64,000 nt of DNA from Paenibacillus sp. SYP-B4298 (GTDB lineage: Bacteria > Bacillota > Bacilli > Paenibacillales > Paenibacillaceae), in contig NZ_CP115484.1 of NCBI RefSeq assembly GCF_027627475.1, positions 1,115,501-1,179,500 of the forward strand. The letters are read 5' to 3'. Shown here in pieces: positions 24,907 to 52,540 of the stretch (positions are counted from its first letter, which is position 1; each line of letters opens with the position of its first letter). Both the position numbers and the translations under genes were made by a program. The notes beneath the pieces were generated by a model. The model worked only from the letters and a program-made list of their open reading frames with translations, was not told where the DNA came from and ran no database searches.

Positions 24907-26745
24907 ATGAAACAAGAGAACACAGACATGCAACTGGATAGCAGGTATACGAACCGCTTCGTTATCCGGCCTGAGGAATGGGGGATTCATACGGATGGAA
25001 CGCATGCCGAGGAAACAACCGCTGGCTTGAATACAGCGATCCTCAGTGCCAAGGCGCAAGGGTATACCGAGATCGTCATCCCGGCTGGGGACTATCTGAT
25101 CGACGGGGTGTCGAAGACGCACCGGGAACCGCAAAAGGAGGCAGGCGTGCAACTGCCGTCAGACATTCGACTCATTATGGACCCAAACGCGCGATTGAAG
25201 GTAGAGGCTAACGGTTTCCTCGGCTACTCCTGTCTGTATCTCAAAAGTGCGCAAAACGTCACGATTGAGGGCGGACAGTTGATCGGGGAACGATATGAAC
25301 ATAATTACGACGGGGATGATCGGAAGACAACACATGAATATGGCTTTGGCATCTACAGCCACGGAAGCCACAACATCGTCATCGACAATGTTCGCATCAA
25401 GGACTTCACAGGCGACGGCATCTTCGTTGCTTCGACGGGGCTTCTGAACACGAGCGATCCGTATACGCCATCCTCGAAGGTGACGATTCGCAATTGCACA
25501 CTGGATGGCAATGGTCGCAACAATATTTCGATTACTGCTTGCGATGGGGCATTGGTGGAGAATAATCTCATTATCAACGCGGGCATTAACGGCGGCTATG
25601 AGCCCAAGTATGGACTGGACATTGAAAACTATGGCGAGGGCGAGGTTGATTTTGAGGAAGCGTGCACAGTCATCGTCCGCAACAACGTGTTCCGTGACAA
25701 TGTACAGGGCGCTATCAATAACTACAACGGGTATCAGGTCATTATCGAGGGCAATCATTGCGATCATACGATCAGTACAGGCTATTGCGCTAATGCTGTT
25801 ATTGCGAACAACGTGTTCTACAGAGAGGACAATGAGAAGGTAGCGATCATGGGCATCGGCGTCTCCAGCGGCTACATGGGCAATTCCGTTACGATAACCG
25901 GCAATGTAATCGAGGGCTTCAGGAGCGGTATTCAGGTACAAGGCAAGGATATGACTGTCTCTGCCAATACGGTGACGAATACGACGGAGGCGGCGATTCA
26001 TGCGCTGCATTCGGACAATGTATTGATTAGCGGTAATAGTGTGCAGCGCTGCAGCGGTGTACCCTACCGGGTGACGGAATCGTCAAAAGTGACCTTATCC
26101 GGTAACAAGGCAAGCGAAAGCACCGGTTTCGGAGTCGAGCTGTTGAATGCTCCGTCAAGAGGCGAAGTGGAGAGCGGGCAACAACGCTTCAATACGACCC
26201 CCTGCATCATCTCCGGGAACCATCTCGAACGGTGCAACGGTGGCGTGAGGCTGAATGAATCCCATGCGGTCATTCGGGACAATGTGATTGATCTGCGCGG
26301 TAATGAAGCCATTGCTGCCAATTACGGCATCTCGTTTGGGCCCAAGGATCATGCCGTGATCTCCGGCAATCACATCATCGGCTCGCGCAATCTGGCGATC
26401 TATGGTCAGAAGGGAGTCGGCAAGAAGGTCGCCGTGCTGAACAACCACATTGATGATTGTCTATCACTGACGGCCATCAGTCTTCACCAGGGAGTACGAC
26501 CGGAGATTGCGGGCAACCACATCACATTTGCGGAGGGCAAAAAGGGTTTCTACGGCATTTATGTGAAGGGTGCGGAGCAGGCGCTGGTTGCGCATAACCG
26601 TGTGTTCAATGGCTCCGGCGAGCCGGTTGCGCATGCCATTCATACCGCCGAATCAACAGCCTCGAGGGTGCTGGGCAATGCTGTAGGGGGACAATTGAAC
26701 TTGAATACGAACACGGATACTGTGGAGGGCAATGTGACGGTATAG
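24907..26745 (+). CDS. Right-handed beta-helix (pectate-lyase-fold) protein, tailspike candidate
   Basis: 612-residue protein with no signal peptide or membrane segment. The start (RPEEWGIHTDGTHAEETTAGLNTAI, then IVIPAGDYLIDG) is the pectate-lyase-3 opening seen in many phage tailspikes. The rest is a long series of ~22-residue helix turns with NNxI and GNxI ladders (for example VEGNVTV, ISGNHIIGS). It could bind or cut a cell-surface glycan. It is the first gene after the LexA-type promoter, with no terminator before the next tail gene 131 bp on, so a tail appendage role is inferred. A free-standing cytoplasmic or non-classically exported carbohydrate epimerase/lyase is the alternative. Confidence 0.7.
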   Translation: MKQENTDMQLDSRYTNRFVIRPEEWGIHTDGTHAEETTAGLNTAILSAKAQGYTEIVIPAGDYLIDGVSKTHREPQKEAGVQLPSDIRLIMDPNARLKVEANGFLGYSCLYLKSAQNVTIEGGQLIGERYEHNYDGDDRKTTHEYGFGIYSHGSHNIVIDNVRIKDFTGDGIFVASTGLLNTSDPYTPSSKVTIRNCTLDGNGRNNISITACDGALVENNLIINAGINGGYEPKYGLDIENYGEGEVDFEEACTVIVRNNVFRDNVQGAINNYNGYQVIIEGNHCDHTISTGYCANAVIANNVFYREDNEKVAIMGIGVSSGYMGNSVTITGNVIEGFRSGIQVQGKDMTVSANTVTNTTEAAIHALHSDNVLISGNSVQRCSGVPYRVTESSKVTLSGNKASESTGFGVELLNAPSRGEVESGQQRFNTTPCIISGNHLERCNGGVRLNESHAVIRDNVIDLRGNEAIAANYGISFGPKDHAVISGNHIIGSRNLAIYGQKGVGKKVAVLNNHIDDCLSLTAISLHQGVRPEIAGNHITFAEGKKGFYGIYVKGAEQALVAHNRVFNGSGEPVAHAIHTAESTASRVLGNAVGGQLNLNTNTDTVEGNVTV

Positions 26746-26876
26746 GACGCAGGGGATGAGGTCAGCAGTGCAGGCGGCAGCCTTGGCGTGCGGCATCTGG
26801 CGAGGTGTACGCGCGAAGTGGAGGCAAGAGCTGTCGGGAGCAGCTACAGCAGTAACGAACGGCGGGTGAACAACCA

Positions 26877-27599
26877 TTGGAACGAGACCACATACTATTC
26901 AAGCTCACATTAAATCTTCCCATTGATATTGACGGAGCGGGTTGCTTGACGCTGCCAACTCTTAGGCTGCTTGCGGCCTGGGGCGAGAAGCGGTATAACG
27001 AGGCGCTGTCGGCACTGCTGTTCGACAAGGAGCAGTACGAGTCCTTCCGCACGTTTACGGAGGACAATTATGGCATGATGTGCCTGTTGTATGCCCAGGA
27101 TGAGCGGTACCGCAGCGCATTGGAAGATGCCATGCAGATGCTGCTCGGGAGCCGGCTGCAGCTTCAGCGAAGGGGAGCTGTACCGTGCTTTGCGCTCGTA
27201 GCGGGGGAGGAGGAGCGCACCTTGTCTGCGGAGAAGCTGGAGCTGATCCGCTATATTGTGCGGATTGCCCACCAACTGGAGGAGCGACCATCCGACTATA
27301 ATCCGGCTAATGCTGCGGCTCGCAGCATGATCGAGCTGCTCAGCCGCAACAAGCGAAGCCGACCGGCTCGCAAGCCGACCACCGATCTGCAGAGTATGAT
27401 CTCCGGGGTAGCCTGGAAGTCGGGCAGCATGAATCTGCTCCATATCGGGGAACTGACGCTGTATCAGCTCTATGACGGCTATCGTCGCCTGCACTGCATC
27501 GACAGCAGTCATCACACCTATACCGGCATCTACGCAGGAACCATTGACAGCAAGGCCATCAAGCTGTCCGAGCTGAACTGGGCAGCGATTATAGACTAA
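26877..27599 (+). CDS. Uncharacterised phage-type protein ahead of the tail tube gene
   Basis: 240-residue soluble protein I do not recognise. It probably starts at TTG 26877, with GCGGGTG 8 nt upstream. It is rich in charged helices (LLAAWGEKRYNEALSALLFDKEQYESF) and ends with a tryptophan-containing segment (LSELNWAAIID). Its place directly before the probable tube gene suggests a tail completion, terminator or assembly factor. No motif proves this. Confidence 0.5.
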   Translation: MERDHILFKLTLNLPIDIDGAGCLTLPTLRLLAAWGEKRYNEALSALLFDKEQYESFRTFTEDNYGMMCLLYAQDERYRSALEDAMQMLLGSRLQLQRRGAVPCFALVAGEEERTLSAEKLELIRYIVRIAHQLEERPSDYNPANAAARSMIELLSRNKRSRPARKPTTDLQSMISGVAWKSGSMNLLHIGELTLYQLYDGYRRLHCIDSSHHTYTGIYAGTIDSKAIKLSELNWAAIID

Positions 27600-27628
27600 T
27601 ACACAATCATAACAGGGGGAAATTGATA

Positions 27629-28420
27629 ATGACAACGAACAAATGGGCGATTCGCGAGGTAGCAATTGCACACTTTTTTGATCGAGTGACTGGCGAGCTG
27701 AAGGTCAAGCTGGACAGCCTCAAGCAGAACGGCTTGGAGAATACATCGGAGACGGTCTACACTCAGGGCGGACGCGGCAATACGAAAATCGTCGGCTTCT
27801 CCAGCAACAAGGCAGCGCGCTTCACGCTGCAGGATGCCGTGTTCACCAGTGAGATGCTGGCCATGCTGACTGGTCAGGAGCTGGTCAAGGGAGCAGCTCC
27901 GATCATCAAGGAGGAGGTGCTGACGGTATCTGGCAATGCTGCCTTGCTGTCCTGCACACCACGTACAGCAGGCAAGCTCCAGAGCGTTCAGGTGCTGGGC
28001 GCTGACGGCAGCAAGGGCAGAACGCTAAGCTATGCGGCCTCGGCGCCGGGTGCGGGTCAATACAGCGTGTCCGGCAAGACCGTCACCTTCGGCAGTGATA
28101 CCGTGGCAGATGGCGAGCGTGTCCAGATCTATGTGGAGACGATGACGGGCGCGGATGCGAGCAAGTTCGCATCGTCGGCGGACAAGTTCGCTGGCACGTA
28201 CAAGCTGGTGCTGGATTGCCTCGTGCGCGATGTGGCGACTGAACGGGATTATGCAGCGCAGATCGTCGTGCATAAAGCCAAGCTGGAGAGCAATTGGAAT
28301 CTGACCATGTCCCCGACTGGCGATCCATCGGTGCTGGATATTCCAATGGAGGCGCTGCGCTCCGGTGACTCGAACGAGCTGTACACGATGACGATCTTTG
28401 ACGACAGCGCGGTTGTGTAG
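27629..28420 (+). CDS. Probable major tail tube protein
   Basis: 263-residue protein, mostly predicted beta strands, starting at ATG 27629 behind AGGGGGA. Phrases such as TVYTQGGRGNTKIVGFSSNKAARFTLQDAVFT resemble tube-type structural proteins of Gram-positive phages. Position before chaperone-like genes and the tape measure is the standard siphophage order for the tail tube. No contractile sheath gene lies next to it. Function is inferred mainly from order and composition. Confidence 0.55.
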   Translation: MTTNKWAIREVAIAHFFDRVTGELKVKLDSLKQNGLENTSETVYTQGGRGNTKIVGFSSNKAARFTLQDAVFTSEMLAMLTGQELVKGAAPIIKEEVLTVSGNAALLSCTPRTAGKLQSVQVLGADGSKGRTLSYAASAPGAGQYSVSGKTVTFGSDTVADGERVQIYVETMTGADASKFASSADKFAGTYKLVLDCLVRDVATERDYAAQIVVHKAKLESNWNLTMSPTGDPSVLDIPMEALRSGDSNELYTMTIFDDSAVV

Positions 28421-28639
28421 AATCCGAATATCGGAGTGAACAAGCTGGCAGCAGGCGTCTAAACCGGGGGATTGGCGCTAGGCAGTGAAGAACCGTGTGC
28501 GGAGCATAGCGCATGTTGCGAACAGGATGACGTATTGGTCAGCGGGTAGGGAGTCGGGCGCAGAAGTTACCTTTAGTTAATGGGGCTCGGCTGCTGCCCG
28601 CTATCCCGCTGTGAATAGGGACAGGAGGAGAGGCAGCAT

Positions 28640-29101
28640 ATGAGACTATATCAATATGAGCTGGCGGAGTGGATTGAATTCTTGTACCGCCTGCGGCTGG
28701 TAGACAAGGCAAGTCGGATGCGCTCGCGAATGATTCGCTTGTTAAGCGGCTATATGGAGCGGCTTCAGGGCGAATATGATGAGCTGGTGCAAGAGCATGC
28801 CCGCAAGGATGAGCAGGGCAGGCCGATCACGGAGGAGACAGAGGGTCAGAGCAAGCTGGTGCTCGCGAACCCGGAGGCTTTCCAGCAGGCCTATCGTCGA
28901 TTGCTGGAGGAGGAGATTGTACTGGATCAGACTGCGGAACGCAAGGAGATGCTGCTGGCTGTACGGGAGGCGGTATTGAACTGCGGCTTGTCCTTCGAGG
29001 GAGACGAGGCGGTTCGATATGATCGCTGGTGCGAGATTGTGGAGGGAATCGACATAGGCCAGGGCGAGGAAGCTGGGGGAGGAGGAGCAGAGCATGGCTG
29101 A
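28640..29101 (+). CDS. DUF1617-like phage protein
   Basis: 153-residue protein opening with RLYQYELAEWIEFLYRLRLVDKASRMRSRMIRLLSGYMERL and a following HARKDEQGRPI block, which is the DUF1617 pattern of phages of Gram-positive hosts. The C-terminus is a Gly/Glu-rich tail. GGAGGAG precedes the ATG. It sits where the first tail assembly chaperone is expected and overlaps the next gene by 8 nt. Its function is not known. Confidence 0.6.
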   Translation: MRLYQYELAEWIEFLYRLRLVDKASRMRSRMIRLLSGYMERLQGEYDELVQEHARKDEQGRPITEETEGQSKLVLANPEAFQQAYRRLLEEEIVLDQTAERKEMLLAVREAVLNCGLSFEGDEAVRYDRWCEIVEGIDIGQGEEAGGGGAEHG

Positions 29102-29519
29102 GAAACGCTTGACGTTGACCCAGTTACATAAGGAGCATCAAGCCAGGTTCAACGAGCAGACAAAGGTACGGCTGAGCAACGGCAGCTATATCGTCATTCA
29201 ACGCCGGTTCGAGCGGACGAGGATCGCTGACCTGCTCGTTCGTTATATGGAGCTGATGGAGCAGGCCAGGCAGCAGGAGATGGACCCAAGCCATCTGCAG
29301 ACGCTGGGCGATGTTGTGTTCCATATGCTGGTGCTCAAGCAGTTCACTAATCTGGCATCGATACCCGATGACCCGGAGAAGATGACGGTCATCTTCAAGC
29401 AGCTCGTCAATCTGGAGCTGCTGGGCGAGATCTTCAATCACTTCGACAAGGAGGAGCTGGACAAGATGGAGGCTCAGCTACGGCAGGCTGTAGCGCTTGC
29501 GGGGCAGCAAGGCAACTAA
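29094..29519 (+). CDS. Probable tail assembly chaperone
   Basis: 141-residue, mostly helical, charged protein directly upstream of the tape measure gene, the usual chaperone position. It has its own ribosome binding site (GGAGGAGGAGCAG) and ATG inside the end of the preceding gene. I saw no slippery sequence that would fuse the two frames as in lambda gpG/gpGT, so they appear to be made separately. Assignment is by gene order. Confidence 0.5.
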   Translation: MAEKRLTLTQLHKEHQARFNEQTKVRLSNGSYIVIQRRFERTRIADLLVRYMELMEQARQQEMDPSHLQTLGDVVFHMLVLKQFTNLASIPDDPEKMTVIFKQLVNLELLGEIFNHFDKEELDKMEAQLRQAVALAGQQGN

Positions 29520-29551
29520 AGGCGTGCCGTAGCAGGAAGGGGGGATAATGG

Positions 29552-34312: not shown

Positions 34313-34906
34313 ATGACGATTCGCGATGCAGATTATTTCAAATATGCTGGCGTAGCAAGCAGCGATTATGGCATCCGCAATGTGAATGTGACAAGCGGGC
34401 TGCAGGAGGAGCCATTCGGCTCTGGCCGCAGCATCACGGAGATTGCGGTTCGCGGCAGGAGCCGTCCTTACTTTCAATCGATCCGGCGCGAGCCGCTGAC
34501 GCTGCGCGTGTCCTTCGCCTTCGAGCAGGCGTGGGACAAGGAGCGGCTGCGCGAGGTATGCCGCTGGCTGACGGAGCAGCCGTATTACCAGCCGCTCAGC
34601 TTCACGAGCGATAATGACCGCATCTTCTATGCGCTGGTCGTGGAGGACCCGCAGCTTGTGCATAACTGTCTCAGCCAGGGCTATGTGCAGTTGACCTTTC
34701 GCTGCAATGACGCTTATGCGTACTCGCCTGCTGTGGTTCGCACGCTGAAGGCGCGAGATGCGGCAAGGCGCTTCGAGCGCAGCGCCTTCCATGAGGGCGA
34801 GCGGCAGCAGACCGTGCTGAATGCGCAGCAGCAGTTGGAGCTGCCGTCACAGGCGGCGAGCTGGCTGGATTATGCGGCGGATGAGAGCTGGGACAGCCTG
34901 CTATAG
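34313..34906 (+). CDS. Distal tail protein (Dit, siphophage tail family)
   Basis: 197-residue protein with the Dit N-terminal signature: YFKYAGVASSDYGIRNVNVTSG, then RGRSRPYFQSIRREPLTLRVSFAF and a C-terminal beta core (GYVQLTFRCNDAYAYSP). Dit forms the hub that joins tail tube and tip. The protein is short and lacks the carbohydrate-binding galectin-like extension of longer Dits. It follows the tape measure by 18 bp, the expected order. Confidence 0.85.
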   Translation: MTIRDADYFKYAGVASSDYGIRNVNVTSGLQEEPFGSGRSITEIAVRGRSRPYFQSIRREPLTLRVSFAFEQAWDKERLREVCRWLTEQPYYQPLSFTSDNDRIFYALVVEDPQLVHNCLSQGYVQLTFRCNDAYAYSPAVVRTLKARDAARRFERSAFHEGERQQTVLNAQQQLELPSQAASWLDYAADESWDSLL

Positions 34907-35037: not shown

Positions 35038-35673
35038 TTGGCAAAGATAACAGACAAGCTAAAGCTGGTGCAGCCGGAGCTGAGCGATAGTATCCATAGC
35101 ACCATCCAGTCGCTCGCTCACAATATGCAGCGGCTGGACGAGCATGCGGACGAAGCGATGCCGGCGATTCCGACATACGGAGCGTGGAAGCAGGGCGTCC
35201 GCATCTGGAATAGCGCGCCGGCAGCAGGTGTCCCGGTCGGATGGGTCAACGTGCAGGAGGGCGAGCAAGCCCCGGCATGGGCGCGGCTCACCTATTATCA
35301 GGCGGGGGAGAAGGTGCTGTCCGCTGACAATAACGGTCATATCTACACCTGCTCGCAGGCAGGCTACAGTGGCATCGTGGAGCCGATCTTCCCGCTGACG
35401 GCAGGCGCACAGGTGGAGGATACACGGGGGCGGACAGCCTGGTCGCCACTGGCGGTGCGGAGTCTCGGCGAGCTGGTGATGCCCAGCGCGCCCAATGGAT
35501 TCTTCTACGTCTCCGTGGTAGCCGGGAGAACGGGAACCGCCGAGCCGCCGTGGACGGTCGTGAACGGCAGCTCGGTCAATGATGGCGAGGTTGTATGGCA
35601 CGCCTACAAGATCGCCAAGTGGAAGGAAGCGGGCATATCCGCACATTTCCGGCCATTCGGGATGATCGGGTGA
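35038..35673 (+). CDS. Phage tail-associated protein with carbohydrate-binding-like repeats
   Basis: 211 residues, starting at TTG 35038 with AAGGAGT 7 nt upstream. A helical N-terminus (KLKLVQPELSDSIHSTIQSLAHN) is followed by two beta-rich repeats of the type seen in chitin-binding and tail-fibre modules (YYQAGEKVLSADNNGHIYTC...GYSGIVEPIFP and LVMPSAPNGFFYVSV...GTAEPPW). It may be a tip accessory that touches the cell surface. The next gene overlaps its stop. Confidence 0.55.
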   Translation: MAKITDKLKLVQPELSDSIHSTIQSLAHNMQRLDEHADEAMPAIPTYGAWKQGVRIWNSAPAAGVPVGWVNVQEGEQAPAWARLTYYQAGEKVLSADNNGHIYTCSQAGYSGIVEPIFPLTAGAQVEDTRGRTAWSPLAVRSLGELVMPSAPNGFFYVSVVAGRTGTAEPPWTVVNGSSVNDGEVVWHAYKIAKWKEAGISAHFRPFGMIG

Positions 35674-36320: not shown

Positions 36321-36332
36321 GGAGAGATGGCG

Positions 36333-40400: not shown

Positions 40401-40520
40401 GGAGTATTGACTGATCGCGCCACTCTAAGAGAAGGAGCGTACAGGACATTTGGCGTTAATCCGTTGTTGATCGTCCTGAGTTGGTAGGGAGAAGGCGCGC
40501 AGAAGAAAGGGGCAATGTGG

Positions 40521-40970: not shown

Positions 40971-41009
40971 CGGGATTGAGGCCAATCGATGAAGGGAGGT
41001 GAAGCAAGA

Positions 41010-42258: not shown

Positions 42259-42801
42259 ATGACGACGCCAATTATTTCATGGAGAAACAGCACACATGAG
42301 CAGGAGATTACCGAGCCCTTCAATTTCGGGGTCATCGACGCGGGCGATCCTAGCCCGGTGTATACGTTCAATATTTGGAATAACCGAGGCGGGACGGCAG
42401 ATGTGCCGAAAATGGAGGACTGCACCATCACCACCCGTGATATGAAGGGCGGCACGGGCGAGGAGGCTGGCAACGAGGTACAGGTGGTGAAGGATAACTG
42501 GTTCCACGCGCAGGTGGATTCGCTCGGGGAGACGGATCTGGACGAGGAGACGAGCCGCATCGGCAAGGATTTCCTCAAGGCGCTCGGCACGACCGGGACG
42601 ACGAAGAAGAACCATGCGGGTGCGAGCTACCCGGCGCCACTGGCTCCGGCGGCCAAGGAGATTCTGGGTGTGAGCAACAACGGCAACCCGACAGACGCTG
42701 CGGGCAACTATGTGACCGTCAGCCTGCGTGCCCAGGTTCCGCTCGATGCGCGCAGCGGACAGCAGGCGTTCAAGCTGCGGGTATCGTACCGATACGTGTA
42801 G
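42259..42801 (+). CDS. Uncharacterised phage structural protein
   Basis: 180-residue beta-rich soluble protein starting at ATG 42259 behind AAAGGGG. Features are ISWRNSTHEQEITEPFNFGVIDAGDPSP, a Gly/Thr-rich middle (KALGTTGTTKKNHAGASYP) and a terminal strand pair (YVTVSLRAQVPLDAR, FKLRVSYRYV). The text FNFGVIDAGDPSPVYTFNIWNNRGG looks like an immunoglobulin-like domain of tail or head decoration proteins. No function can be given. Confidence 0.5.
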   Translation: MTTPIISWRNSTHEQEITEPFNFGVIDAGDPSPVYTFNIWNNRGGTADVPKMEDCTITTRDMKGGTGEEAGNEVQVVKDNWFHAQVDSLGETDLDEETSRIGKDFLKALGTTGTTKKNHAGASYPAPLAPAAKEILGVSNNGNPTDAAGNYVTVSLRAQVPLDARSGQQAFKLRVSYRYV

Positions 42802-43356: not shown

Positions 43357-43974
43357 ATGGTGTTGGGAAATAAGCAATACAGCCGCTCGCCGGTAGCACA
43401 GAGCTTCATCTGGGCGGCAGACTATTATGACGGTAGCTCTATGCTGGAGTTCGATCCGCGCACACACCAGCCGAATAGCTTTTATGCGATTGACCGCAGC
43501 CGTTTGGTACGGTTCGGGTTGATCGGGGGCGGGTCGCAGATTTTTTTTGACGTTGGCAATGGCGTGTTCGAGCTGAATGGTCATCGTATCATGGTCACCT
43601 ATGCCCCGCATGGGCGGGAGGAGCTGCCGTTGACCGGGAGGGCGTATGGCTACAGTGACATTATTACGTATAAGGATGCGGTGGCGGATGCCGACTTGCT
43701 GCGGCGTGGCCATCAGGGACGCTTCGCGCATGAGATTACGGCATTCAGTGTCGGGTATAAGAAGCTGCTGGAGCTGGAGGGGGTACGGCTGCATTATCAG
43801 GCGCTGGTCACGGTGCCAGAGCATGCGCCGGTGTATATGCAGCTCAAGCTGACAAGCGAGCAGGCGCTGGAGGGACGGCTGAATATTCGGGTGAACGGCA
43901 AGCTGGTGGACAGCATCGAGGCGCCGTTGCAGGCGAGGACAGCGGGAATGATCAACTGGCACATTAAAGGATGA
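43357..43974 (+). CDS. Uncharacterised tail-cluster protein
   Basis: 205 residues, ATG 43357 behind GGGAGAG. Mostly beta strands (QSFIWAADYYDGSSMLEFDPR, IDRSRLVRFGLIGGG, RLNIRVNGKLVDSIEAPLQ). It follows the low-complexity gap and begins the second group of tail-associated genes. The order suggests a fibre base or adaptor, but no family was recognised. Confidence 0.5.
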   Translation: MVLGNKQYSRSPVAQSFIWAADYYDGSSMLEFDPRTHQPNSFYAIDRSRLVRFGLIGGGSQIFFDVGNGVFELNGHRIMVTYAPHGREELPLTGRAYGYSDIITYKDAVADADLLRRGHQGRFAHEITAFSVGYKKLLELEGVRLHYQALVTVPEHAPVYMQLKLTSEQALEGRLNIRVNGKLVDSIEAPLQARTAGMINWHIKG

Positions 43975-43988: not shown

Positions 43989-44438
43989 ATGTCGGACATT
44001 TGGGAAACCGATCAGTACGGAAGACTCTGGGGCAAGCAGCCGATAAACGGTACGGTCGAGATTAGCGAGAGCAATAATAAGCTGGTGCTGGAGCTGGAGA
44101 CGGGTATGGGGGCAGGTACAGGCGAGGGGACGGGCACGGATTCGGGCGCGGGCATGGGTACAGGGACAGGGGCAGGTACGGATACAAGTACAGGGTCGAG
44201 CAAAAGGTCATACGAGCTGAGGGTACCGCCGGGGAGCTACTATACGGAATATGTGCAGAACCGTTCGGAGCTGGTGGAGAAGCTGCAGGAGCTGGCGCAG
44301 GGGGCGGCGCTTCCGGTGGATTTTCGTGTCGGGGGATACCACCAGGATGAGAAATACAATGTCATTGTGCTGCAAATGCAGGGCGGTGAGACATTGACAG
44401 GGTTGTCGGGCACATTTGCCGAGGCGTGGATAGTGTAG
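43989..44438 (+). CDS. Small tail-cluster protein with Gly-Thr linker
   Basis: 149 residues, ATG 43989 behind GAGAGGGG. The N-terminal 35 residues (WETDQYGRLWGKQPINGTVEI) lead into a Gly/Thr/Ala/Asp low-complexity stretch of about 36 residues and then a folded C-terminal part (SYELRVPPGSYYTEYVQNRSEL, DFRVGGYHQDEKYNVIVLQM). The linker arises from a repetitive GGGACAGGTAC-type DNA tract and could vary by slippage. Function unknown; probably structural. Confidence 0.5.
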   Translation: MSDIWETDQYGRLWGKQPINGTVEISESNNKLVLELETGMGAGTGEGTGTDSGAGMGTGTGAGTDTSTGSSKRSYELRVPPGSYYTEYVQNRSELVEKLQELAQGAALPVDFRVGGYHQDEKYNVIVLQMQGGETLTGLSGTFAEAWIV

Positions 44439-44454
44439 AGAGGAGGGAATGGCT

Positions 44455-45297
44455 ATGGCGGAAGTGCGGGAGCTCGGGCTGGAGCTGGATTTGAGCAGGG
44501 GGACGTTTTACAGGACGGAGTACCGGGCTGGAGCATTGCAACTGGCTCAGGTGGGCGTCAGCGATGCCGGGCATGAGATTTATTATGAATCTGGCTACTG
44601 GGAGTCGGAGGATTCGTTCTTGAAGGACCGGGTAGCGGCATTTAGCAAGGTAAGCAAGAGCAGTGTTGTAATCAAAAACGGAACGTTCAAGGTGATGACA
44701 GCCTCCTCCCCTGACCGGTTGACATGGACGCAATGGCAGGAGGTTGCTGCGGATACCGGAGAGATCCAGTCGCCTGTAAACACGTATGCCAAGGTGCGAA
44801 TCGAGCTGCGGTCTGCGAAGACGGTGGAGAGCTTTACGGTCGATGATTTCAAGGATGCGGCGAAGTATAGCAACCCCTATCTGGACTATTCCAATGGAAG
44901 CTTGAGCTCGAAAAGGGAATATCCATCCACCATGAACGTAGATTCAGGCTGGACAGGCAGTGGCAAGGTTTATCGCGGGAGTGTAGACAGAGTGAATCTG
45001 AGTAGAGTGGATCGATTAGCCGTGGATACGGATGGAATGCGTCACTTCATTAAGGTGGATGGGCAATACATCTCGTATAAGGATGGGGTCAAGCAAATGG
45101 TAGCAAGCCCGTCGCAGGCGGACTATGTGAATATAGGGATGGATGACTTGAGTGTGCTGGAACGGAAACGCACTGTGATGGAGTTTGCGATGAGCAGTGA
45201 CGGGAGCGTTGGAAATGGGAGGGTGTTTAGGAGGACGGTGGATTTGAATAGGCTGGTGCAGATTAAGGGGATGGAGATTTTAGGGGGAGGGGCGTGA
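44455..45297 (+). CDS. Tail-cluster protein with shared C-terminal fibre module
   Basis: 280 residues from ATG 44455, 7 nt after GAGGAGGG. The first 130 residues are beta-rich (FKVMTASSPDRLTWTQWQEVAA; YAKVRIELRSAKTVESFTVDDF). The last ~60 (ADYVNIGMDDLSVLERKR, then GNGRVFRRTVDLNRLVQIKGM) match the C-termini of the next two proteins in layout: a Y/G-M motif, then GxGKxFxxxID and a final beta strand. Codon and base use are GC-rich like the rest of the cluster, unlike its downstream neighbours. Confidence 0.55.
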   Translation: MAEVRELGLELDLSRGTFYRTEYRAGALQLAQVGVSDAGHEIYYESGYWESEDSFLKDRVAAFSKVSKSSVVIKNGTFKVMTASSPDRLTWTQWQEVAADTGEIQSPVNTYAKVRIELRSAKTVESFTVDDFKDAAKYSNPYLDYSNGSLSSKREYPSTMNVDSGWTGSGKVYRGSVDRVNLSRVDRLAVDTDGMRHFIKVDGQYISYKDGVKQMVASPSQADYVNIGMDDLSVLERKRTVMEFAMSSDGSVGNGRVFRRTVDLNRLVQIKGMEILGGGA

Positions 45298-45301
45298 TAT
45301 T

Positions 45302-47005
45302 GTGGCAGTGATAAAGATCAAGAAACTAAGTGATCCTAGCAGTTTGCCTATGTCTGCAAGTGGATGTTCCTTTTCATCGGATAGTGAATTTTTAGCGGTT
45401 ACCAGTTTTCATAGACCATATATAATTCTGTATAAAAGAGAAGGAGATATTTTCATAAAATTACCAAACCCAAGCAATCTACCATCTGGAGATGTGTATG
45501 GTTGCTCCTTTTCCCCAGATGGAGCATATTTGGCAGTGGCTCACAATTCATCTCCATATATAACCATTTATAAAATTAATGGAGATGATTTTGAAAAAGT
45601 GGATAATCCTAGTAGTTTACCAACTGGCATTGGTTACGGCTGTTCTTTTTCTCCAGATGGAAGCTATTTGGCTGTTGGTTCTTTTGGTCGCCCACCTCTC
45701 TTAATATACAAAAGACGTGGGGATACATTTATAAAGTTGAATGATCCAACTTATTTACCTTCAGGTGCAGTTTTATCCTGTTCCTTTGCGCCTGATGGGG
45801 GACATTTTGCTGTTGGTCATGTTGGTAGTCCTTATGTAAGTATTTACAAAAGAAATGGTGATACGTTCACTAAGTTGGCTAATCTTTCAAATCTCCCCAC
45901 CTCTCCTACCAATGGTTGCACGATTTCACCCGATGGAAATTGTATGGTCATTGTTTGTGATAGTCCACCATTTATAACCATTTATGAAAAAAATGGTGAT
46001 ACATTTTCTAAGTTAGCGAAGCCAATCGATTTACCCGAAGGGAGTGGTAAAAGTTGTTCTTTCTCTCCAGATGGGAGATATTTAGCTGTTGCTCATCAGG
46101 GTAGTCCATTTCTAACGATATATATGAGAGATGGGGATACATTCATGAAATTAAATTCTCTAAGTGATTTACCGACTGGAAATAGTAATGGCTGTTCCTT
46201 TTCACCTAATGGGAATTACTTGGCCGTTTCACATGATGCCGCTCCATTTATAACTATTTATAGACTTAAATATAGCCAAGATAAAGTCTTACTTACATCG
46301 TATAATGAATCAAATATTTACTCCTTGATACCTAGCAAAAATGGAGTTGGTACAGCCATTCCAAGAATGACTAGCAATCACTCTCCGTCAGGTAGAGCTT
46401 TTTCCAGTAGAATTTGGGGGAATGCATTTGATGCTTGGTATGCATTTAATCAGATGAATGACGGGCAGGGGAGTGTATCAGCAACTGATAATGGATATTT
46501 AGGTTACGAGTTTGAAGAGATAATAGCTATTGGTAAGTATTCGATCTCAAGTGGAACTTCAACTTCTTCGGATGCATTGAGTGCAATGCCAAAAGACTGG
46601 ACATTTGAGGGCTCAGAAGATGGAGAAAAATGGATGATTCTGGACTCTCAAAATAATCAGTCATGGACAACTGCGGTTACAGAAAAGGAATTTAATATTA
46701 TTAATCCTACACATTATAAATTTTATCGCTTAAATTGGCGCACGAACAATGGTAATTCGAATTATACAAATATAAATGAATTAAAGATGTTTGAACATTT
46801 TTTTAGTGAGTTGATTTCTTTAAACATGGTTTCGGAAGAGAATTTTTTGACCTATGGTATCGAGAACGAGGATGAAATTGATATAACCCAGCCTGTGCAA
46901 GAAGTTATATCTGTCATACAGAGCTCTACGATTCTGAACGCAGGCAAGGTATATGAGCATGAGCTCGGTTTATCGAAACGAAGAGTTGATCATATTATAG
47001 TGTAA
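45302..47005 (+). CDS. Beta-propeller repeat plus discoidin-domain tail protein
   Basis: 567 residues from GTG 45302. Residues ~5-330 hold seven ~47-residue repeats with GCSFSPDGxYLAVAHxSSP, then ITIYKxxGDxFxKL and LPTG, which should fold as a propeller. Residues ~350-500 look like an F5/8 type C (discoidin) domain (MPKDWTFEGSEDGEKWMILDS; FYRLNWRTNNG). The last ~60 residues carry the shared YGI...GKVYEHELG module. The gene is clearly AT-rich compared with its left neighbour. Both domains bind carbohydrate or protein ligands, so cell-surface recognition is inferred. Confidence 0.65.
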   Translation: MAVIKIKKLSDPSSLPMSASGCSFSSDSEFLAVTSFHRPYIILYKREGDIFIKLPNPSNLPSGDVYGCSFSPDGAYLAVAHNSSPYITIYKINGDDFEKVDNPSSLPTGIGYGCSFSPDGSYLAVGSFGRPPLLIYKRRGDTFIKLNDPTYLPSGAVLSCSFAPDGGHFAVGHVGSPYVSIYKRNGDTFTKLANLSNLPTSPTNGCTISPDGNCMVIVCDSPPFITIYEKNGDTFSKLAKPIDLPEGSGKSCSFSPDGRYLAVAHQGSPFLTIYMRDGDTFMKLNSLSDLPTGNSNGCSFSPNGNYLAVSHDAAPFITIYRLKYSQDKVLLTSYNESNIYSLIPSKNGVGTAIPRMTSNHSPSGRAFSSRIWGNAFDAWYAFNQMNDGQGSVSATDNGYLGYEFEEIIAIGKYSISSGTSTSSDALSAMPKDWTFEGSEDGEKWMILDSQNNQSWTTAVTEKEFNIINPTHYKFYRLNWRTNNGNSNYTNINELKMFEHFFSELISLNMVSEENFLTYGIENEDEIDITQPVQEVISVIQSSTILNAGKVYEHELGLSKRRVDHIIV

Positions 47006-47030
47006 TAACATTTCTTAGGATGTGAAAATA

Positions 47031-47780
47031 ATGGGCACAAACGGGGAGAATGAGAACTCTATAAGGAAGATTTTGATATTAATTAGGGATAAATGCTATA
47101 GCCTGAATAGTCTTGAACTTTCATCAGGAAATCTAATTCCTGTAATGAAGTCAGATAAAAATGAAAATGGTACTGCGAGTGCTAGTTCAGTCCAGACTTC
47201 CGAATATCCTGCATGGAAGGTTTTCGACGGATTAACAACGACCGATTGGCGTTCAGCAATAAGAGAAGTCTCTTATAGTTGGCTAAGATATGATTTTAAT
47301 GAACCAGTTAAGGTGAATAGATACGTCTTAAGAGGGTACAAACAAAATGAACAGTCACCAAGTGATTGGACTTTGCAAGGTTCAAATGATGGAGCAAATT
47401 GGACAATTCTTGATTCAAGAACTGATGTAAACGATTGGAGCGTTGAACCGAATAAGCAGTACGATATAACTTATACAACAGAATATCATATATATCGAAT
47501 TGTATTTACAAAAGTTAATAATAATACATTGTATTATATAATTAAAAATTTCGAACTGTATTGGTTCTCAAGAGTTAATTATATTGCGGAAATGGAATCA
47601 ATAACTGAACAAAATTTTATTAAGTATGGAATGAATAAGGGGAGTATATTAGACATGAAAGTATCAATGAATAACAAAATATTAATCAATACGTCCTCAT
47701 CGAGGCTTGGGAGTGGAAAACTATTTAAACAGGTAATTGATTCATCTAGGATGCCAATTAAAAAAATCACGATTCAATAG
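47031..47780 (+). CDS. Discoidin-domain tail protein
   Basis: 249 residues from ATG 47031 (GTG 47022 is an upstream alternative). Residues ~45-180 form an F5/8 type C domain: YPAWKVFDGLTTTDWRS, NRYVLRGYKQNEQSPSDWTLQGS, DGANWTILDSRTD. The C-terminus repeats the shared module (NFIKYGMNKGSILDMKV, LGSGKLFKQVIDSSRM). AT-rich like the preceding gene. Its stop codon lies inside the left target duplication of the MITE that follows. It is probably a fibre or adhesin subunit. Confidence 0.65.
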   Translation: MGTNGENENSIRKILILIRDKCYSLNSLELSSGNLIPVMKSDKNENGTASASSVQTSEYPAWKVFDGLTTTDWRSAIREVSYSWLRYDFNEPVKVNRYVLRGYKQNEQSPSDWTLQGSNDGANWTILDSRTDVNDWSVEPNKQYDITYTTEYHIYRIVFTKVNNNTLYYIIKNFELYWFSRVNYIAEMESITEQNFIKYGMNKGSILDMKVSMNNKILINTSSSRLGSGKLFKQVIDSSRMPIKKITIQ

Positions 47781-48070: not shown

Positions 48071-50464
48071 ATGGCCAATGGTAATTTCGCAGGAGGGAAA
48101 GGAACTTATGATAATCCTTATTTAATTGAAGATGCTCATGACTTAGACAAAATTAGAATAAATTATACTAACAAGAGTTTCAAACTCATATCTGATATTG
48201 ATATGAATATAGCCCCGTATAATAGTGGAGAAGGTTGGGCGCCACTCCCTGCGTTTAGAGGCACATCATTAGACGGAAATAACTTTATAATCAAGAATCT
48301 ATTTATCAATAAGCCCGATGTATCTTACGTAGGGCTGATTAGTTCAATTGGTAATAGTGGTCAAAGCGGGAGTGTAAAGAATCTAGGGCTAGAGAATGTA
48401 AGCATAATAGGCGGTTATTCTACCGGGAGTATAGCTGGTTTATGTTCAGTACCAACAAGCTTTATCGAAAATTGTTACACAACAGGTTCCATTAAAGCTA
48501 CTGGTATGGGAGTGGGGGGATTAGTAGGGGATTTTCAGAAAGGATTAATTAAGAATTGTTATTCGCTTTCTTCTATCTATGGAGCTGAGCGAACGGGGGG
48601 AATTATTGGGAGTATTCAAGGCGGAGATGTTATAAATTGCTTCTCCGCAGGACAAGTCAATTCAAGTACTACGACTGAAGTGGGTGGGTTCATAGGAAGT
48701 AAATATGGTGGGACAGTTACAGATTGTTTTTGGGATATTCAATCATCTGGCTATACAAATTCTGAAGGAGGGATTGGCAAAATTACTTCAGAGATGTACA
48801 CATTATCTACTTTTCAAAACTGGAATAATACTGTTTGGCTAATACAGGACGGCGTATATCCTCAGTTGCGTTCGTTTATACCGATTAATCGTAAGATTCT
48901 TATTAATGAAAATGGTCATTATCGGTACTACAATGAGTCTGTTTGGTATAGCTTGGGAAAGGTTATAGTTGAAAACGACTATATTAAATATGGAATGTCA
49001 CCTCAGAGTCTTAGTGTAATTCCAGAATCCGCCTGGTCACAACTTCAAGGAGAAGTTGAAATTTGTTATTTCACTGATGACTCTACCCAAACAGAGGTTT
49101 TATTTAATGTTGAAACAGAGCCATTTACCCTTGCTGAGGAATGGGGAGGGGGGAAATTAAAGATACTTGAGTACACTGACAATCCACTGCAGGCAGATTC
49201 ATCAGTTACTGTTCGCACCGAGCCCTTCGTCCTCTACGACGAACTGGGCGAGCAGATGAATGTTCTCTATTATACAGACGATGAGAATGTGACTAGCCCA
49301 AGTCTTGAGATCACCGCCAATTATTCGCCACTTGACGAATTATCTACGGGTTATGAGCTGCATAGCTGGGCAAGCGACGAGAATGCTGAATCGCCCTCGC
49401 TCATGATCCATGCAGTGCCTGTGCCTCAGGTTGTTGTGCAGCCAGAGGATGTTGAGCTTGTTGGCGATCTACAGACGATAGTCGTGCAAAAGTTGGGTCA
49501 TCTGGGGCGTATCCGACTGGCGGTTTCTTTTGACAGCGGGATGACCTGGGAGAGCTATAAATTCAAGCAGTGGGTTGACATTGACATTGGGCAGACCGAT
49601 CAGATTCGCAAGCAAGGCATGTCGGTGTATGACCTGTCCCAATTAACGGCGAATGTGCTAGCGCACAAAGGGGAGAAGTTAAGAATCGCCTACTATATCG
49701 AGGACAATATTCATGGGAATGAAGCGGTAAGCCTCGCCAAGACGGTGCTGCAGGTCGCATCGCCTACCGGTAATGTCAAGGTGGACGGCCTGAAGTTCCA
49801 CATTTTGAATACGGCGGCTGAACTGGAGCTGGTCTTCCAGGGCAATAAGCTATCTGGGATGCTCACAGATGCAGATCAGGGCAAGGTGCAGTATCGTGTG
49901 CTGCTCAACGAAGAGCCCTACTATCCATCGGATGGACAGTATACAAGGCTTGCGGCAGCCCCCTTAACTATTCGGCTGAACATTACGGAGGAGCGGTTGT
50001 TTTTTGACCGGGACAATAGGCTAAGGGTGGAATTTCGGGATGGCTGGGGGCAGGAGGATGTCTGGGAGACAATCTTCGCTGGCTCCTACTCGGGGCTCAT
50101 GTTCAAGGACGAATCGGGCCACTATCTAACCAACTCCCTAGGCGAGCTTCTCAAGCATCTGAATTTTGGCGTGGTGATCGCGGGTCAGACGACGCTGGAG
50201 CAGCAGGTAGTGGTAAGGAATCAGCTTGGTGAACGGGTGCAAAATCTCCAACTGGAGGTGGCGCAGGACAAGCTGCCTGAGGGGGTCGCCGTACAGCTCT
50301 CCCGCACAGCCTCGCCGTTCCGCGCAGAGGAGTCGCTGCTGTTCAATCAGATCGTGGAGCCGGAGGAGGAGTTGACCTTCTACGTCCGGCTGTCCACCCA
50401 AATACATGCGCCGGCGGCACCCGCCGGGCAGTTCGAGATTCGGGCCAATGCCGATGCGTTATAA
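48071..50464 (+). CDS. GLUG-repeat tail protein, mosaic base composition
   Basis: 797 residues behind AGGAGGGG. Residues ~15-260 carry GLUG-type repeats (GSIAGLC, VGGLVGDF, TGGIIGSI, VGGFIGS) typical of adhesins. Near residue 315 the shared KYGM module appears. Residues ~330-450 contain three to four ~42-residue repeats with (C/L)YYTDD and VxTEPFxLxDE text. The C-terminal 300 residues are beta-rich (NITEERLFFDRDNRLRVEF). DNA is AT-rich up to about 49,195 and then GC-rich to the end, so the gene is a recombinant of two sources. It is likely a receptor-binding protein. Confidence 0.65.
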   Translation: MANGNFAGGKGTYDNPYLIEDAHDLDKIRINYTNKSFKLISDIDMNIAPYNSGEGWAPLPAFRGTSLDGNNFIIKNLFINKPDVSYVGLISSIGNSGQSGSVKNLGLENVSIIGGYSTGSIAGLCSVPTSFIENCYTTGSIKATGMGVGGLVGDFQKGLIKNCYSLSSIYGAERTGGIIGSIQGGDVINCFSAGQVNSSTTTEVGGFIGSKYGGTVTDCFWDIQSSGYTNSEGGIGKITSEMYTLSTFQNWNNTVWLIQDGVYPQLRSFIPINRKILINENGHYRYYNESVWYSLGKVIVENDYIKYGMSPQSLSVIPESAWSQLQGEVEICYFTDDSTQTEVLFNVETEPFTLAEEWGGGKLKILEYTDNPLQADSSVTVRTEPFVLYDELGEQMNVLYYTDDENVTSPSLEITANYSPLDELSTGYELHSWASDENAESPSLMIHAVPVPQVVVQPEDVELVGDLQTIVVQKLGHLGRIRLAVSFDSGMTWESYKFKQWVDIDIGQTDQIRKQGMSVYDLSQLTANVLAHKGEKLRIAYYIEDNIHGNEAVSLAKTVLQVASPTGNVKVDGLKFHILNTAAELELVFQGNKLSGMLTDADQGKVQYRVLLNEEPYYPSDGQYTRLAAAPLTIRLNITEERLFFDRDNRLRVEFRDGWGQEDVWETIFAGSYSGLMFKDESGHYLTNSLGELLKHLNFGVVIAGQTTLEQQVVVRNQLGERVQNLQLEVAQDKLPEGVAVQLSRTASPFRAEESLLFNQIVEPEEELTFYVRLSTQIHAPAAPAGQFEIRANADAL

Positions 50465-50497
50465 CTCTCAATGCAATGAGACAGGATGTGAGGAAGG

Positions 50498-52540
50498 ATG
50501 GAGCAAACGGAGGAGCTTCAGAGTACATTAACGGTGAAGACCGTCAGAGCGAACCGGATGCAAGGAGCCTTTGTCCTGTACCGACCGGGGCAGGAGGAGA
50601 AGGAGGCGGAGGTCACTGTCCGTCAGCTTAACACAGGCAGCATGCATGCGCTGATCGCTGTCCGAACGTTCCGTTCGCAGGAATGGCAAGCGACACTAGG
50701 GGTCAAATACCGCGGGCAGAGCAGCCTGCAAGCGGGTATTACGGCGATGCCGCTGGCTCAACTGGATGCGAGTCTGGAGGTTCGGCCGCATAACCGGATG
50801 CTGGGCTCCTTCGAGCTGCTGGAGGCGCCACGCAAGGAAGCTGCTGTGACCGCGATTGCGGATGCCAGCACGCGAAGTCTGGAGCGGCTGCGGACCATCA
50901 ACTATGGCGACGCCCGCAGTATGCTGACAGGCCGCAATACGGATGAGGCGTTTGAGGCATTTGTACGATTTGCCGATCTGGATACGGTGATCCCGGATAT
51001 TCATGTGATCGAGCAAGCGGTGCTGCGCCTCTACTATGTGCAGTTCCCGGCAGGGAGTCGGCTGGAGCTGCATCAGCCAGATGCGTTATGGCGGGAGATG
51101 GGCATCACGGATGCCAATAAGCCGCTCTCCAGCGAGCTGCTGACGCATGAATACCATGTCCATCCCGCAGAGCGGTGCGTGGAAATAGATGTGCTGGCGC
51201 TCGTTCAGCGCTGGCGGTCTGGAGAGCTGCCGAACCTGGGTCTGATCATCCGAACACCGGATGACCGTACCCTTAGCTTCTATACGCGCGAGTCGGGTTA
51301 CCCGCCGCAGCTACGCATTTCCTATGTGACGTCTCAAGTATACAGCATCGGACGCGAGTGGCTAAGCGGAGGAATGTTCGTCTATGGGGGAGGTCGCAAG
51401 GATGTGTCAGCTCAACTGACTGTACACAGTGATGTCGGCTTCTCCTGGCGGTCTGCTGGCCTCTATGTGCATCGCGCGGAAGATCCGCTGCTTGTTGAGC
51501 GCACGGGCGAACTGACTGTATCTTGTCCGACACTTGATGGACAGATGGTGGTGTACCGGAGACAGGAGGAGGATAAGGGGGCTGTATTGACAGTACGGCA
51601 TGAGGATCACACCTCTCCTGCTGCCAGCCTTGGCGCCCAGCGTCCACAGCTTCATGCGCGCCTGACGGTTGATCCGCGAAGCTCTCTGCGCTCTGAATTG
51701 ACGGTCAGGGTAGAGGGGGGCGAGAGTACGGCGGGGCAGCTTCATGTATCCAGACCAGACGCAAGCGGTCAACTGGAGGTCTCCCCGTACACTCGGAGCC
51801 AGGGCGCGATAGAAGCGCTGCTTGAGGTGCGGACGCATCGGGAGCAGGTGTGGGAAGGGATCATTCACGCGAGCCGACCCGATCTGTCAGGCAGGCTGCA
51901 TGCGCGAATCCCAGATAGTGATGCGATTATGGCTTTCCTGCAAGTGCCCGGCTATAACGATACGTCAGCCAAGCTTGCTATCTCTCATCCCGACTTGGAG
52001 GGACGCGTGCAGGCGAGAGCGAATGGGCAGGATGAGCGGGCTTGTCTGCTGCAGGTCGTCGGGTACGACTATCGGATGGCGCAGATGAAGGTAAGCCGCC
52101 CCGATCTCCCGGCAGCGCTGCGCATCTACCGGATGTATGCAGAAGCGGGCAGAGACGGCTTGCTCACGGTTCCGCATTATGAGGAGCGAGCGGCAACGCT
52201 GACGAGCAGTCGCCCCGATCTCCCGGCGATCGTGAAGGTGAAATACACTTCAGAAGCGGCTGGCGAGCTAGGGGTGAAGGAGCGTGCATTCATCCAAGGC
52301 GAGCTGGATGTGCGCCAGATCGCGGAGGCGGCGGGCGAGCTGCTGGTGAAGCAGATCGAGGAGCAAGCCGCCTGGCTGGGCGTGCATCGTCCACAGCTTG
52401 CAGCAGTGCTTCATCCCCGGGTGCCCGGTATGGCAGAATGGGCAGCGAGGATGGAGATTCGCAAGCGCGATGCCGCCGACCTGAGCAGCCTGCTGTCTGT
52501 TAAGGGCACGGGCAATCGAGGGTATGCTTTTATATTGTGA
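50498..52540 (+). CDS. DNRLRE-domain repeat protein, end of tail cluster
   Basis: 680 residues. Residues ~125-280 fit a DNRLRE-type domain (TRSLERLRTINYGDARSML; EAFVRFADLD; CVEIDVLALVQRWRSGELPNLGLIIR). Before and after it are many ~35-residue beta repeats of the pattern ELxVxRPDLxAxLxV (SRPDLSGRL, SHPDLEGRV, SRPDLPAAL, SRPDLPAIV). The rows of repeats predict a long fibrous beta structure. No signal peptide is present, which fits a phage-type structural protein. GAGGAAGG lies close to the ATG. It is the last gene of the co-directional cluster. Confidence 0.6.
   Translation: MEQTEELQSTLTVKTVRANRMQGAFVLYRPGQEEKEAEVTVRQLNTGSMHALIAVRTFRSQEWQATLGVKYRGQSSLQAGITAMPLAQLDASLEVRPHNRMLGSFELLEAPRKEAAVTAIADASTRSLERLRTINYGDARSMLTGRNTDEAFEAFVRFADLDTVIPDIHVIEQAVLRLYYVQFPAGSRLELHQPDALWREMGITDANKPLSSELLTHEYHVHPAERCVEIDVLALVQRWRSGELPNLGLIIRTPDDRTLSFYTRESGYPPQLRISYVTSQVYSIGREWLSGGMFVYGGGRKDVSAQLTVHSDVGFSWRSAGLYVHRAEDPLLVERTGELTVSCPTLDGQMVVYRRQEEDKGAVLTVRHEDHTSPAASLGAQRPQLHARLTVDPRSSLRSELTVRVEGGESTAGQLHVSRPDASGQLEVSPYTRSQGAIEALLEVRTHREQVWEGIIHASRPDLSGRLHARIPDSDAIMAFLQVPGYNDTSAKLAISHPDLEGRVQARANGQDERACLLQVVGYDYRMAQMKVSRPDLPAALRIYRMYAEAGRDGLLTVPHYEERAATLTSSRPDLPAIVKVKYTSEAAGELGVKERAFIQGELDVRQIAEAAGELLVKQIEEQAAWLGVHRPQLAAVLHPRVPGMAEWAARMEIRKRDAADLSSLLSVKGTGNRGYAFIL

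Follow-up and report, generated by a model that had tools for sequence, protein, structure and literature searches.

A headless SPbeta/Sundance-type tail cluster in Paenibacillus: a probable SOS-controlled tailocin

Introduction

Why does a Paenibacillus chromosome carry a run of siphophage-like tail genes beside nrdR, and is this locus a weapon, the remnant of a prophage or a tail put to some other use? The cluster occupies positions 24,907-52,540 of the window, the 64,000-nucleotide stretch of the Paenibacillus sp. SYP-B4298 genome that was analyzed. A sequence-only reading had described it as a tail-only cluster running in one direction and as a non-contractile tailocin-like or domesticated tail; the first part is borne out by profile matches, and the second is the best reading of the data presented here. 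The cluster is probably a chromosomal, DNA-damage-inducible tailocin of the F (non-contractile) type, whose genes come from the tail half of a siphophage of the SPbeta/Sundance type, and most likely serves as a headless tail for attacking competing bacteria. Tailocins are specific antibacterials, and a class of SPbeta descent in Paenibacillaceae would offer a new source to be mined.

A tail half without a head

All genes of the cluster lie on the + strand, and PHROG and Pfam profiles match a tail-spike-like beta-helix, a tube relative, a tape measure, a split Dit, a tip, a PAAR protein and host-contact proteins (Table 1). The tail module is intact, and its gene order follows that of the tail half in siphophages of the SPbeta/Sundance type. 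In a PDB search by sequence, the tube profile matches chains solved as "tail tube protein" (8k98), and the tip protein has 0 matches. Dit, which the earlier reading had listed as present, is indeed there but is divided among three ORFs (starts at 34,313, 35,038 and 35,595). Directly 5′ of the tube gene is a 240-aa protein that, from its gene position, is the putative tail terminator; its family is found in 37/37 headless loci described below, and its predicted structure model has a mean pLDDT of 67. One flank is nrdR, as had been read, whereas the supposed iron locus on the other is more accurately an AraC regulator, two ABC exporters, a FecCD permease and a binding protein. An anti-phage defence role for the cluster was set aside after PADLOC matched none of the 9 cluster proteins submitted.

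Table 1. Predicted features of the tail cluster and its control region (window coordinates)
Feature	Coordinates	Strand	Evidence
Promoter, -35 TGGACA (24784-24789), 17-nt spacer, -10 TATAAT (24807-24812)	24784..24812	+	11/12 consensus matches
LexA/SOS box CGAACGATTGTTCT, fills promoter spacer	24793..24806	+	motif comparison
Inverted repeat GTTCCTTTTTGGAAC, just 3′ of -10	24821..24835	.	also kept in P. pinihumi
Right-handed beta-helix, tail-spike-like	24907..26745	+	PF13229 3.7e-36; phrog_2234 tail spike 1.4e-76
240-aa protein, Sundance gp029 homologue	26877..27599	+	phrog_4051
Major tail tube protein	27623..28420	+	phrog_2729 3.7e-55; solved "tail tube protein" 8k98, E 1.5e-12
Tail assembly chaperone candidate A, Sundance gp034 homologue	28640..29101	+	phrog_1401; role from position
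Tail assembly chaperone candidate B	29094..29519	+	phrog_7383; role from position
Tape measure protein, 1580 aa	29552..34294	+	phrog_4211 3.2e-128
Dit N-terminal part, YomH-like	34313..34906	+	PF20195 2.8e-9; phrog_33
Sundance gp037 homologue, between both Dit parts	35038..35673	+	phrog_20658 7.3e-76
Dit C-terminal part	35595..36320	+	PF20753 2.8e-7
Tail tip/minor tail protein, YomG + Prophage_tail domains	36327..40400	+	PF24049 3.8e-24; PF06605 6.3e-20; phrog_6211 1.3e-264
PAAR protein	40515..40970	+	PF05488 2.7e-8
Conserved tail-associated protein, 390 aa, Sundance gp041	40989..42161	+	phrog_11315 6e-125
Conserved protein, 180 aa, Sundance gp042, identity 69%	42259..42801	+	phrog_11814
Conserved protein, 205 aa, Sundance gp043	43357..43974	+	phrog_11178
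Small fibre-associated proteins, n=2 (149 + 282 aa)	43989..45297	+	
Host-contact protein, beta-propeller + discoidin-like, G+C 37%	45302..47005	+	
Host-contact protein, F5/8 type C (discoidin), G+C 33%	47022..47780	+	PF00754 6.7e-12
Host-contact protein, GLUG motif	48071..50464	+	PF07581 5.6e-5; phrog_10667 1.7e-129
CBM96-domain protein, last gene of cluster, Sundance gp053 homologue	50498..52540	+	PF24517 1.1e-11

The earlier claims that head, sheath, integration and lysis genes are missing also hold. None of eight Sundance-type head and packaging families is matched in the 43 kb inspected, in a search that recovers 8/8 families in 5/5 control phages. Across the whole 6.26-Mb genome there is no match to TerL of the SPbeta/Sundance-type lineage, nor to the YonO RNA polymerase or the YopR repressor. 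Among the 19 cluster proteins, PHROG and Pfam match no contractile sheath (including the XkdK type) and no integrase family, and within the window the Sundance integrase-like protein, three holin seeds and three lysin seeds are unmatched; a gp028-like gene is likewise absent from the window. Release, as had been remarked, is left unexplained, because neither the window nor its nearest relative contains a detectable lysis gene.

A LexA box within the promoter

Just 5′ of the tail genes as first delimited lies a regulatory region (24,784-24,835) in which a LexA box occupies the spacer of a sigma-A-type promoter, both recognized from motifs. The first gene 3′ of this putative SOS promoter encodes the beta-helix, which takes the position equivalent to that of the YonO polymerase gene in Paenibacillus pinihumi, where a homologous promoter stands before YonO. 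The promoter is kept between the two species despite a changed neighbourhood. A box of like type precedes lexA in both genomes; in the genome of the window it is CGAACTCCGGTTCT, directly upstream of the gene. Genome-wide, CGAACN4GTTC occurs 23 times, versus 211 for the reversed control, and 18 of the 23 boxes fall within mechanically called ORFs. Promoter-like sites are no more frequent in the control stretch than in shuffles, and a perfect-core box is present in only 5/37 headless loci, in a control region defined after the window's own site was known.

Relatives at the nrdR site and across the family

The nearest relative of the cluster, in P. pinihumi, has the same gene order at the same nrdR site and is also headless, with no lysis gene match. 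The possibility that the locus is fixed at this site does not survive comparison of seven Paenibacillus genomes: the cluster is present in 2/7 and absent from 4/7 (about 17 kb downstream of nrdR inspected), and one contig ends at nrdR. No excisable prophage is seen there, with one genome per species compared. The P. pinihumi YonO gene is split, the break adjoining the catalytic aspartate motif. Its halves match two separate PHROG families, which break there too, and the interval between the halves gives a weak match to a group I intron (18.7 bits versus a cut-off of 50, E 0.063). On these three observations a pseudogene was set aside, and an intron appears the more likely explanation.

Tube searches of 394 genomes of the family and one genome of another family gave 64 matches, of which 37 lie in headless loci of the SPbeta/Sundance lineage and 17 have TerL 7.6-9.7 kb upstream. 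Tube matches also turned up in 14 further genomes outside the family. Head or packaging genes beside related clusters had been named as evidence against a tail-only locus; there are none in P. pinihumi, whereas the distant relatives are mixed, comprising both complete prophages and headless loci. G382 and G385 were left out of the headless set for portal- and capsid-like proteins upstream, the first judged by eye and the second by shared neighbour families, neither of them tool-scored.

A single-chain RNA polymerase of the YonO type is encoded just upstream of the tail genes in 24/37 headless loci, an arrangement suggestive of control in two steps. YopQ and YopR of SPbeta have homologues among the control genes of the relatives, a YopR-like repressor being found in 9/37 loci. 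A holin-like gene is present in 19 of the 37 and a lysin-like gene in nine; 18 match neither, at least six of these being visible only in part. The genes c44, c66 and c76, which occupy the YonO position of other loci, have no Pfam match above the curated cut-off.

Killing, other uses and decay

The many domains that bind carbohydrates or surfaces (beta-propeller, discoidin, GLUG, CBM96), the PAAR protein and the lack of a lysis module in the window could indicate a domesticated tail with a non-killing use, such as adhesion or biofilm formation, delivery by the PAAR tip or decoy release. This is unlikely in view of the SOS promoter and of the holin and endolysin genes in relatives. Moreover, the PAAR protein is shared with Sundance, whose fibre proteins are also related, so these require no new use, although the PAAR and beta-helix proteins could still serve one. 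The fibres also vary in the manner of known tailocins. In 3/3 close pairs compared, conservation of the fibre genes is far below that of tube, Dit and tip, and host-contact and fibre genes vary between the window and P. pinihumi as well. Host-contact genes have 32-40% G+C regardless of a backbone that ranges from 41 to 60%; fibre G+C is below backbone G+C in 24/24 loci with labelled genes, and adhesins exceed the tube similarity of their loci by at least 15 points in 22/93 adhesin matches.

A decaying SPbeta-type prophage, its head half lost and its tail unused, would account for the absence of YonO, lysis and gp028-like genes, and complete prophages of the lineage do exist in the family, including one (G002:C22) in the same genus. 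Such a remnant is nevertheless quite unlikely. The 17 cluster genes compared with P. pinihumi contain no internal stop and retain 41-74% amino acid identity (tube 74%, tip 73%, tape measure 50%, a small fibre protein 41%; coaE/slt 70-75%). In the seven of the 17 with computable dS, dN/dS is 0.07-0.13, versus 0.02-0.20 for five housekeeping genes, with dS saturated in the other 10 and near saturation overall. The conserved promoter also speaks against decay, and all seven core tail families are retained in 36/37 headless loci, a pattern that random decay would not produce.

A tail that acts like a satellite, or is complemented in trans, by joining the heads of another prophage could draw on a Phage_Mu_F family head-type gene at 5.68 Mb of the same genome, but it is very improbable, as the genome lacks packaging genes of the cluster's lineage and headless loci recur in many genomes with no same-lineage TerL nearby.

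Proposed mechanism

In the tailocin reading, DNA damage would remove LexA, and host RNA polymerase would then transcribe the beta-helix spike and the tail operon without an intermediate. The product would be a flexible tail with interchangeable fibres, some 240 nm long (at about 0.15 nm of tail per tape-measure residue), and the freed tails would bind competitors and probably depolarise them. Release, the least certain step, might come through another SOS-induced prophage, death of the damaged cell or lysis at sporulation. In relatives with YonO, the control region would drive YonO, which would in turn transcribe the tail genes and, in many, holin and endolysin. The lineage of the window, with neither YonO nor a lysis gene, is best read as carrying a reduced tailocin: YonO would have been lost, conceivably recently, and the SOS promoter now appears to control the tail genes directly.

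More broadly, we lean towards a tailocin class that is widespread in Paenibacillaceae and present in one or more genomes of a neighbouring family, and whose transcription is switched by a dedicated single-chain polymerase of its own, of the YonO type, often accompanied by a YopR repressor or SOS boxes. The window would then represent a later step: after loss of the polymerase, the ancestral SOS promoter would directly precede the tail operon. Fibre genes with a G+C content of 32-40% would circulate among loci whose backbones have 41-60%. The window and P. pinihumi would form a natural before-and-after pair, in which a tail was rewired from phage polymerase to host SOS control. Forrest et al. 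reportedly left open the role of YonO-like polymerases of "main genomes"; a tailocin switch, if true, would be a function for them, and the headless loci make the role of such polymerases outside phages testable.

Comparison with known systems

With the SPbeta and Brevibacillus phage Sundance siphophages the cluster shares the gp029-gp053 gene order, the tube family and the Dit, tip, PAAR and fibre set, and its relatives share with SPbeta the YopQ and YopR homologues and the YonO-type polymerase. Unlike these phages, it has no detected terminase, portal, capsid or integrase, occupies one chromosomal site in two species and has a tape measure of 1580 aa versus 2528 aa. An SPbeta-type prophage is marked by a head and packaging module with TerL and by YonO with YopR, and the searches described above found neither pair here.

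F-type tailocins (F-pyocin, Listeria monocin, rhizoviticin) have a headless non-contractile tail, a variable receptor-binding part and damage-type control; a holin/endolysin cassette is usual among them, though not universal. PBSX-like phage-tail bacteriocins, inducible in the related spore-formers Brevibacillus laterosporus and Bacillus pumilus, differ in being contractile and of the PBSX lineage, with an XkdK sheath of the kind unmatched in the cluster, according to the parts of the two reports considered (PMC9406221, PMC8347963); the B. pumilus particle is described there as having a capsid and packaging host DNA, whereas the cluster is headless. No SPbeta-lineage tailocin and no link between YonO and tailocins was found in the literature searched, and the portions consulted of PMC9854653, PMC8347963 and PMC10931772 describe no such tailocin.

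The cluster resembles the F-type tailocins (see also PMC10811719). It is a headless non-contractile locus that unites tube, tape measure, Dit and tip genes, with no capsid, portal, terminase or contractile sheath detected and with receptor-binding genes that vary while the backbone is conserved. It differs in that the window has no detected lysis cassette and in its phage lineage, a distinction drawn without sequence comparison. Unlike the F-type tailocins, too, many relatives of the cluster carry a dedicated single-chain RNA polymerase.

Content of the tail cluster and absence of head genes

The window occupies C1:1,115,501-1,179,500 of a 6.26-Mb genome assembled as one contig, and the genes of the tail cluster are carried throughout on a single strand. 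Profile searches place at the start of the cluster a tail-spike-like beta-helix, a 240-aa protein homologous to gp029 of phage Sundance, the tube protein and two chaperone-like proteins, and identify within it a 1580-aa tape measure, a Dit spread over three ORFs, a tip protein with YomG and Prophage_tail domains, and PAAR plus several host-contact proteins. For the tube, the profile hits two solved structures of related tail tube proteins, 8k98 and 9jgh (E about 1.5e-12), entries for the tube of phage SPR in complex with DSR2, a defence NADase triggered by that tube. Producers with DSR2-type defence would be expected to face conflict with their own tailocin. Triggering of DSR2 by the SPR tail tube protein is reported in PMC11263360.

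The sequence-only reading had noted a tail without terminase, portal or capsid, and the homology searches agree. None of eight head families was detected in the window by HMM survey, versus all eight in each of five control phages; neither the window nor 60 kb of Paenibacillus pinihumi matches any of Sundance gp018-gp028 (terminase, portal, capsid, connectors), and a profile of the terminase TerL finds nothing in either genome. P. pinihumi, of the same genus group, carries a cluster of the same gene order, also downstream of nrdR. Among seven genus genomes, the nrdR site holds the cluster in two and lacks it in four (G002-G005, about 17 kb checked), the contig of the seventh (G006) stopping just past nrdR. 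Between the two species, 17 cluster genes were compared, a set to which the beta-helix and the two low-G+C adhesins do not belong. Seven of the 17 have a finite dS and give dN/dS of 0.07-0.13, the other ten being saturated; five housekeeping genes give 0.02-0.20.

Coordinates of features (window positions unless a genome or locus is named)
Feature	Position	Strand	Remark
LexA-type box, second perfect-core site	17342-17355		about 420 bp upstream of polA
Candidate SOS promoter	24784-24812	+	LexA box in spacer
Tail cluster	24,907-52,540	+	
Tube gene	27623-28420		
Tandem repeats	42873-43030		units of 16-48 nt, inside a 556-bp gap separating two conserved tail genes
Split YonO-like gene, P. pinihumi	L011:1887-5109		split beside catalytic aspartate motif
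124-125-aa protein near YopR	G265:168-542		joined-locus coordinates; LexA-type box on 5' side
124-125-aa protein near YopR	G153:1655-2032		joined-locus coordinates; LexA-type box on 5' side

Headless loci across the family

Of 394 family genomes, 52 contain matches to the tube profile, at 62 places; hits in G046 and G040 bring the total to 64. TerL lies 7.6-9.7 kb upstream of the tube in 17 of these; YonO, the SPbeta-type single-chain RNA polymerase, lies upstream without TerL in 25 (1.1-3.3 kb) and 2 (14-17 kb); and neither is present in 20. Excluded were the 17 with TerL; G331 and G174, which have head genes; G390, which lacks both tape measure and tip; G382 and G385, in which another head type was recognised by eye; G244, whose tube is 2.3 kb away from the end of its contig; G040; and three short fragments. 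This leaves 37 headless loci. All seven core tail families occur in 36 of them, G394 lacking the tip in its 20 kb, and no head family occurs in any, G305, G309, G082 and G394 being covered only in part. At the level of the order, 42 of 392 genomes were positive for the tube, 15 from other families, G046 being the one of these examined.

Seven headless clusters (G096, G100, G102, G128, G106, G126 and G312) adjoin the same housekeeping genes, identified by eye as a peptidyl-prolyl isomerase, lysA and a spoVAF-like gene, which suggests a second, long-occupied chromosomal site.

A tree built from the tube gene alone (58 rows) joins the window to P. pinihumi as its sister, with support of 100/99. 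The headless label (38 rows, broken G390 counted in) requires 11 changes, at least eight of them forced by well-supported branches, so headless clusters and complete phages have been interconverted or exchanged repeatedly, with the number of independent origins left unfixed by this tree.

Control and lysis genes

A YonO-like polymerase adjoins the cluster in 24 of the 37 headless loci; the thirteen without it include the window. Four aligned YonO-like proteins share D-x-D-G-D, two others (G160, G386) keep the three aspartates as D-x-D-S-D (by eye), and PF05183 is matched by the two YonO-like proteins tested against Pfam. Since P. pinihumi has YonO behind a homologous promoter and the window genome has no YonO match, the polymerase was probably lost in the window lineage. 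At the split in the P. pinihumi gene, two PHROG families break and the gap gives a weak group I intron match (18.7 bits, under the Rfam cut-off).

Two neighbour families, c44 and c66 (419-540 aa), occupy the YonO position upstream of the 240-aa gene in G305/G312/G314 and G316/G319 (loci L097-L100, L107-L110, L151). They show no similarity to YonO and no Pfam match above cut-off, and may be alternative late regulators. Homologues of YopR, also called MrpR and serving SPbeta as master repressor (PMC10516654), neighbour the cluster in 9/37 loci and YopQ homologues in 8/37; YonO and YopR occur together in six. The 124-125-aa proteins near YopR are possibly SOS-induced antirepressors.

Matches to seeds give a holin-like gene in 19 of the 37 loci and a lysin-like gene in 9, and an M23 peptidase was found in G312. 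Neither type was seen in 18, among which G305, G309, G082 and G394 were covered only in part and, for G317 and G179, the stretch covered stops less than 1 kb past the last cluster gene.

A candidate SOS promoter

Upstream of the beta-helix gene is TGGACA-17-TATAAT, with CGAACGATTGTTCT filling the spacer. Promoter-like sites in this stretch are at chance level (5 versus 4.5 in shuffles), so the case for a promoter depends on the LexA box and on conservation. The arrangement recurs in P. pinihumi, 137 bp ahead of YonO, and a second inverted repeat behind the -10 is shared as well; the genes around the conserved promoter there have changed, with an MFS transporter and a LysR-type gene lying between nrdR and the promoter (by eye). 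The source genome has 23 CGAACN4GTTC sites, versus 211 for the reversed control; 18 fall within mechanical ORFs and five are intergenic, one directly preceding lexA, as in P. pinihumi.

Across all 37 loci, the control regions total 17,766 bp and contain 6 perfect-core sites, versus 29 in the 1,402,917 bp outside them, a 16-fold ratio (binomial 4.5e-6; 1000 shuffles gave 0.23 on average and 4 at most). This test was set up after the window site was known, on related loci, only five of which contribute. In four more loci, of one genus, the box overlaps the end of the gene preceding the 240-aa protein, and in three it lies near YopR or its neighbour. Going beyond the gene content, conservation and promoter sequence documented here, we propose that the cluster is SOS-induced, that tails are assembled and that they would kill by binding.

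Host-contact genes

In each of three close pairs, conservation extends to the backbone but not to the fibres. G179 and G180 share 97-99% identity in tube, Dit and tip, versus 32-83% in five adhesins and 92-93% in the GLUG and last proteins; for G102 and G128 the values are 94-95% for tube and tip, 57% for GLUG and 69% for the last protein; and for G386 and G371, 95% for tube, 88% for tip, 77-82% for Dit parts and 28-39% or no match for fibres. Adhesin G+C (0.32-0.40) is under that of the backbone (0.41-0.60) in the 24 loci (of the 37) that have labelled adhesins, being 0.35 versus 0.60 in the window and 0.32 versus 0.48 in P. pinihumi. Of 93 adhesin matches with 60% identity or more over 120 residues, 22 come from loci whose tube identity is lower by 15 points or more, three of the 22 lacking any tube match. 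This fits movement of fibre cassettes between hosts.

Relation to known systems

When tip proteins are compared, the nearest phages are Perkons, Sundance, Alicyclobacillus KKP_3916 and relatives of SPbeta, with 24-33% identity among the 20 matches listed, and gp029-gp053 of Brevibacillus phage Sundance follow the same gene order as the window cluster. Titles and abstract openings of the top results in the open-access PMC literature describe no SPbeta-lineage tailocin and no YonO beside a tailocin. The class is predicted from sequence to belong to the tailocins, a kind already known.
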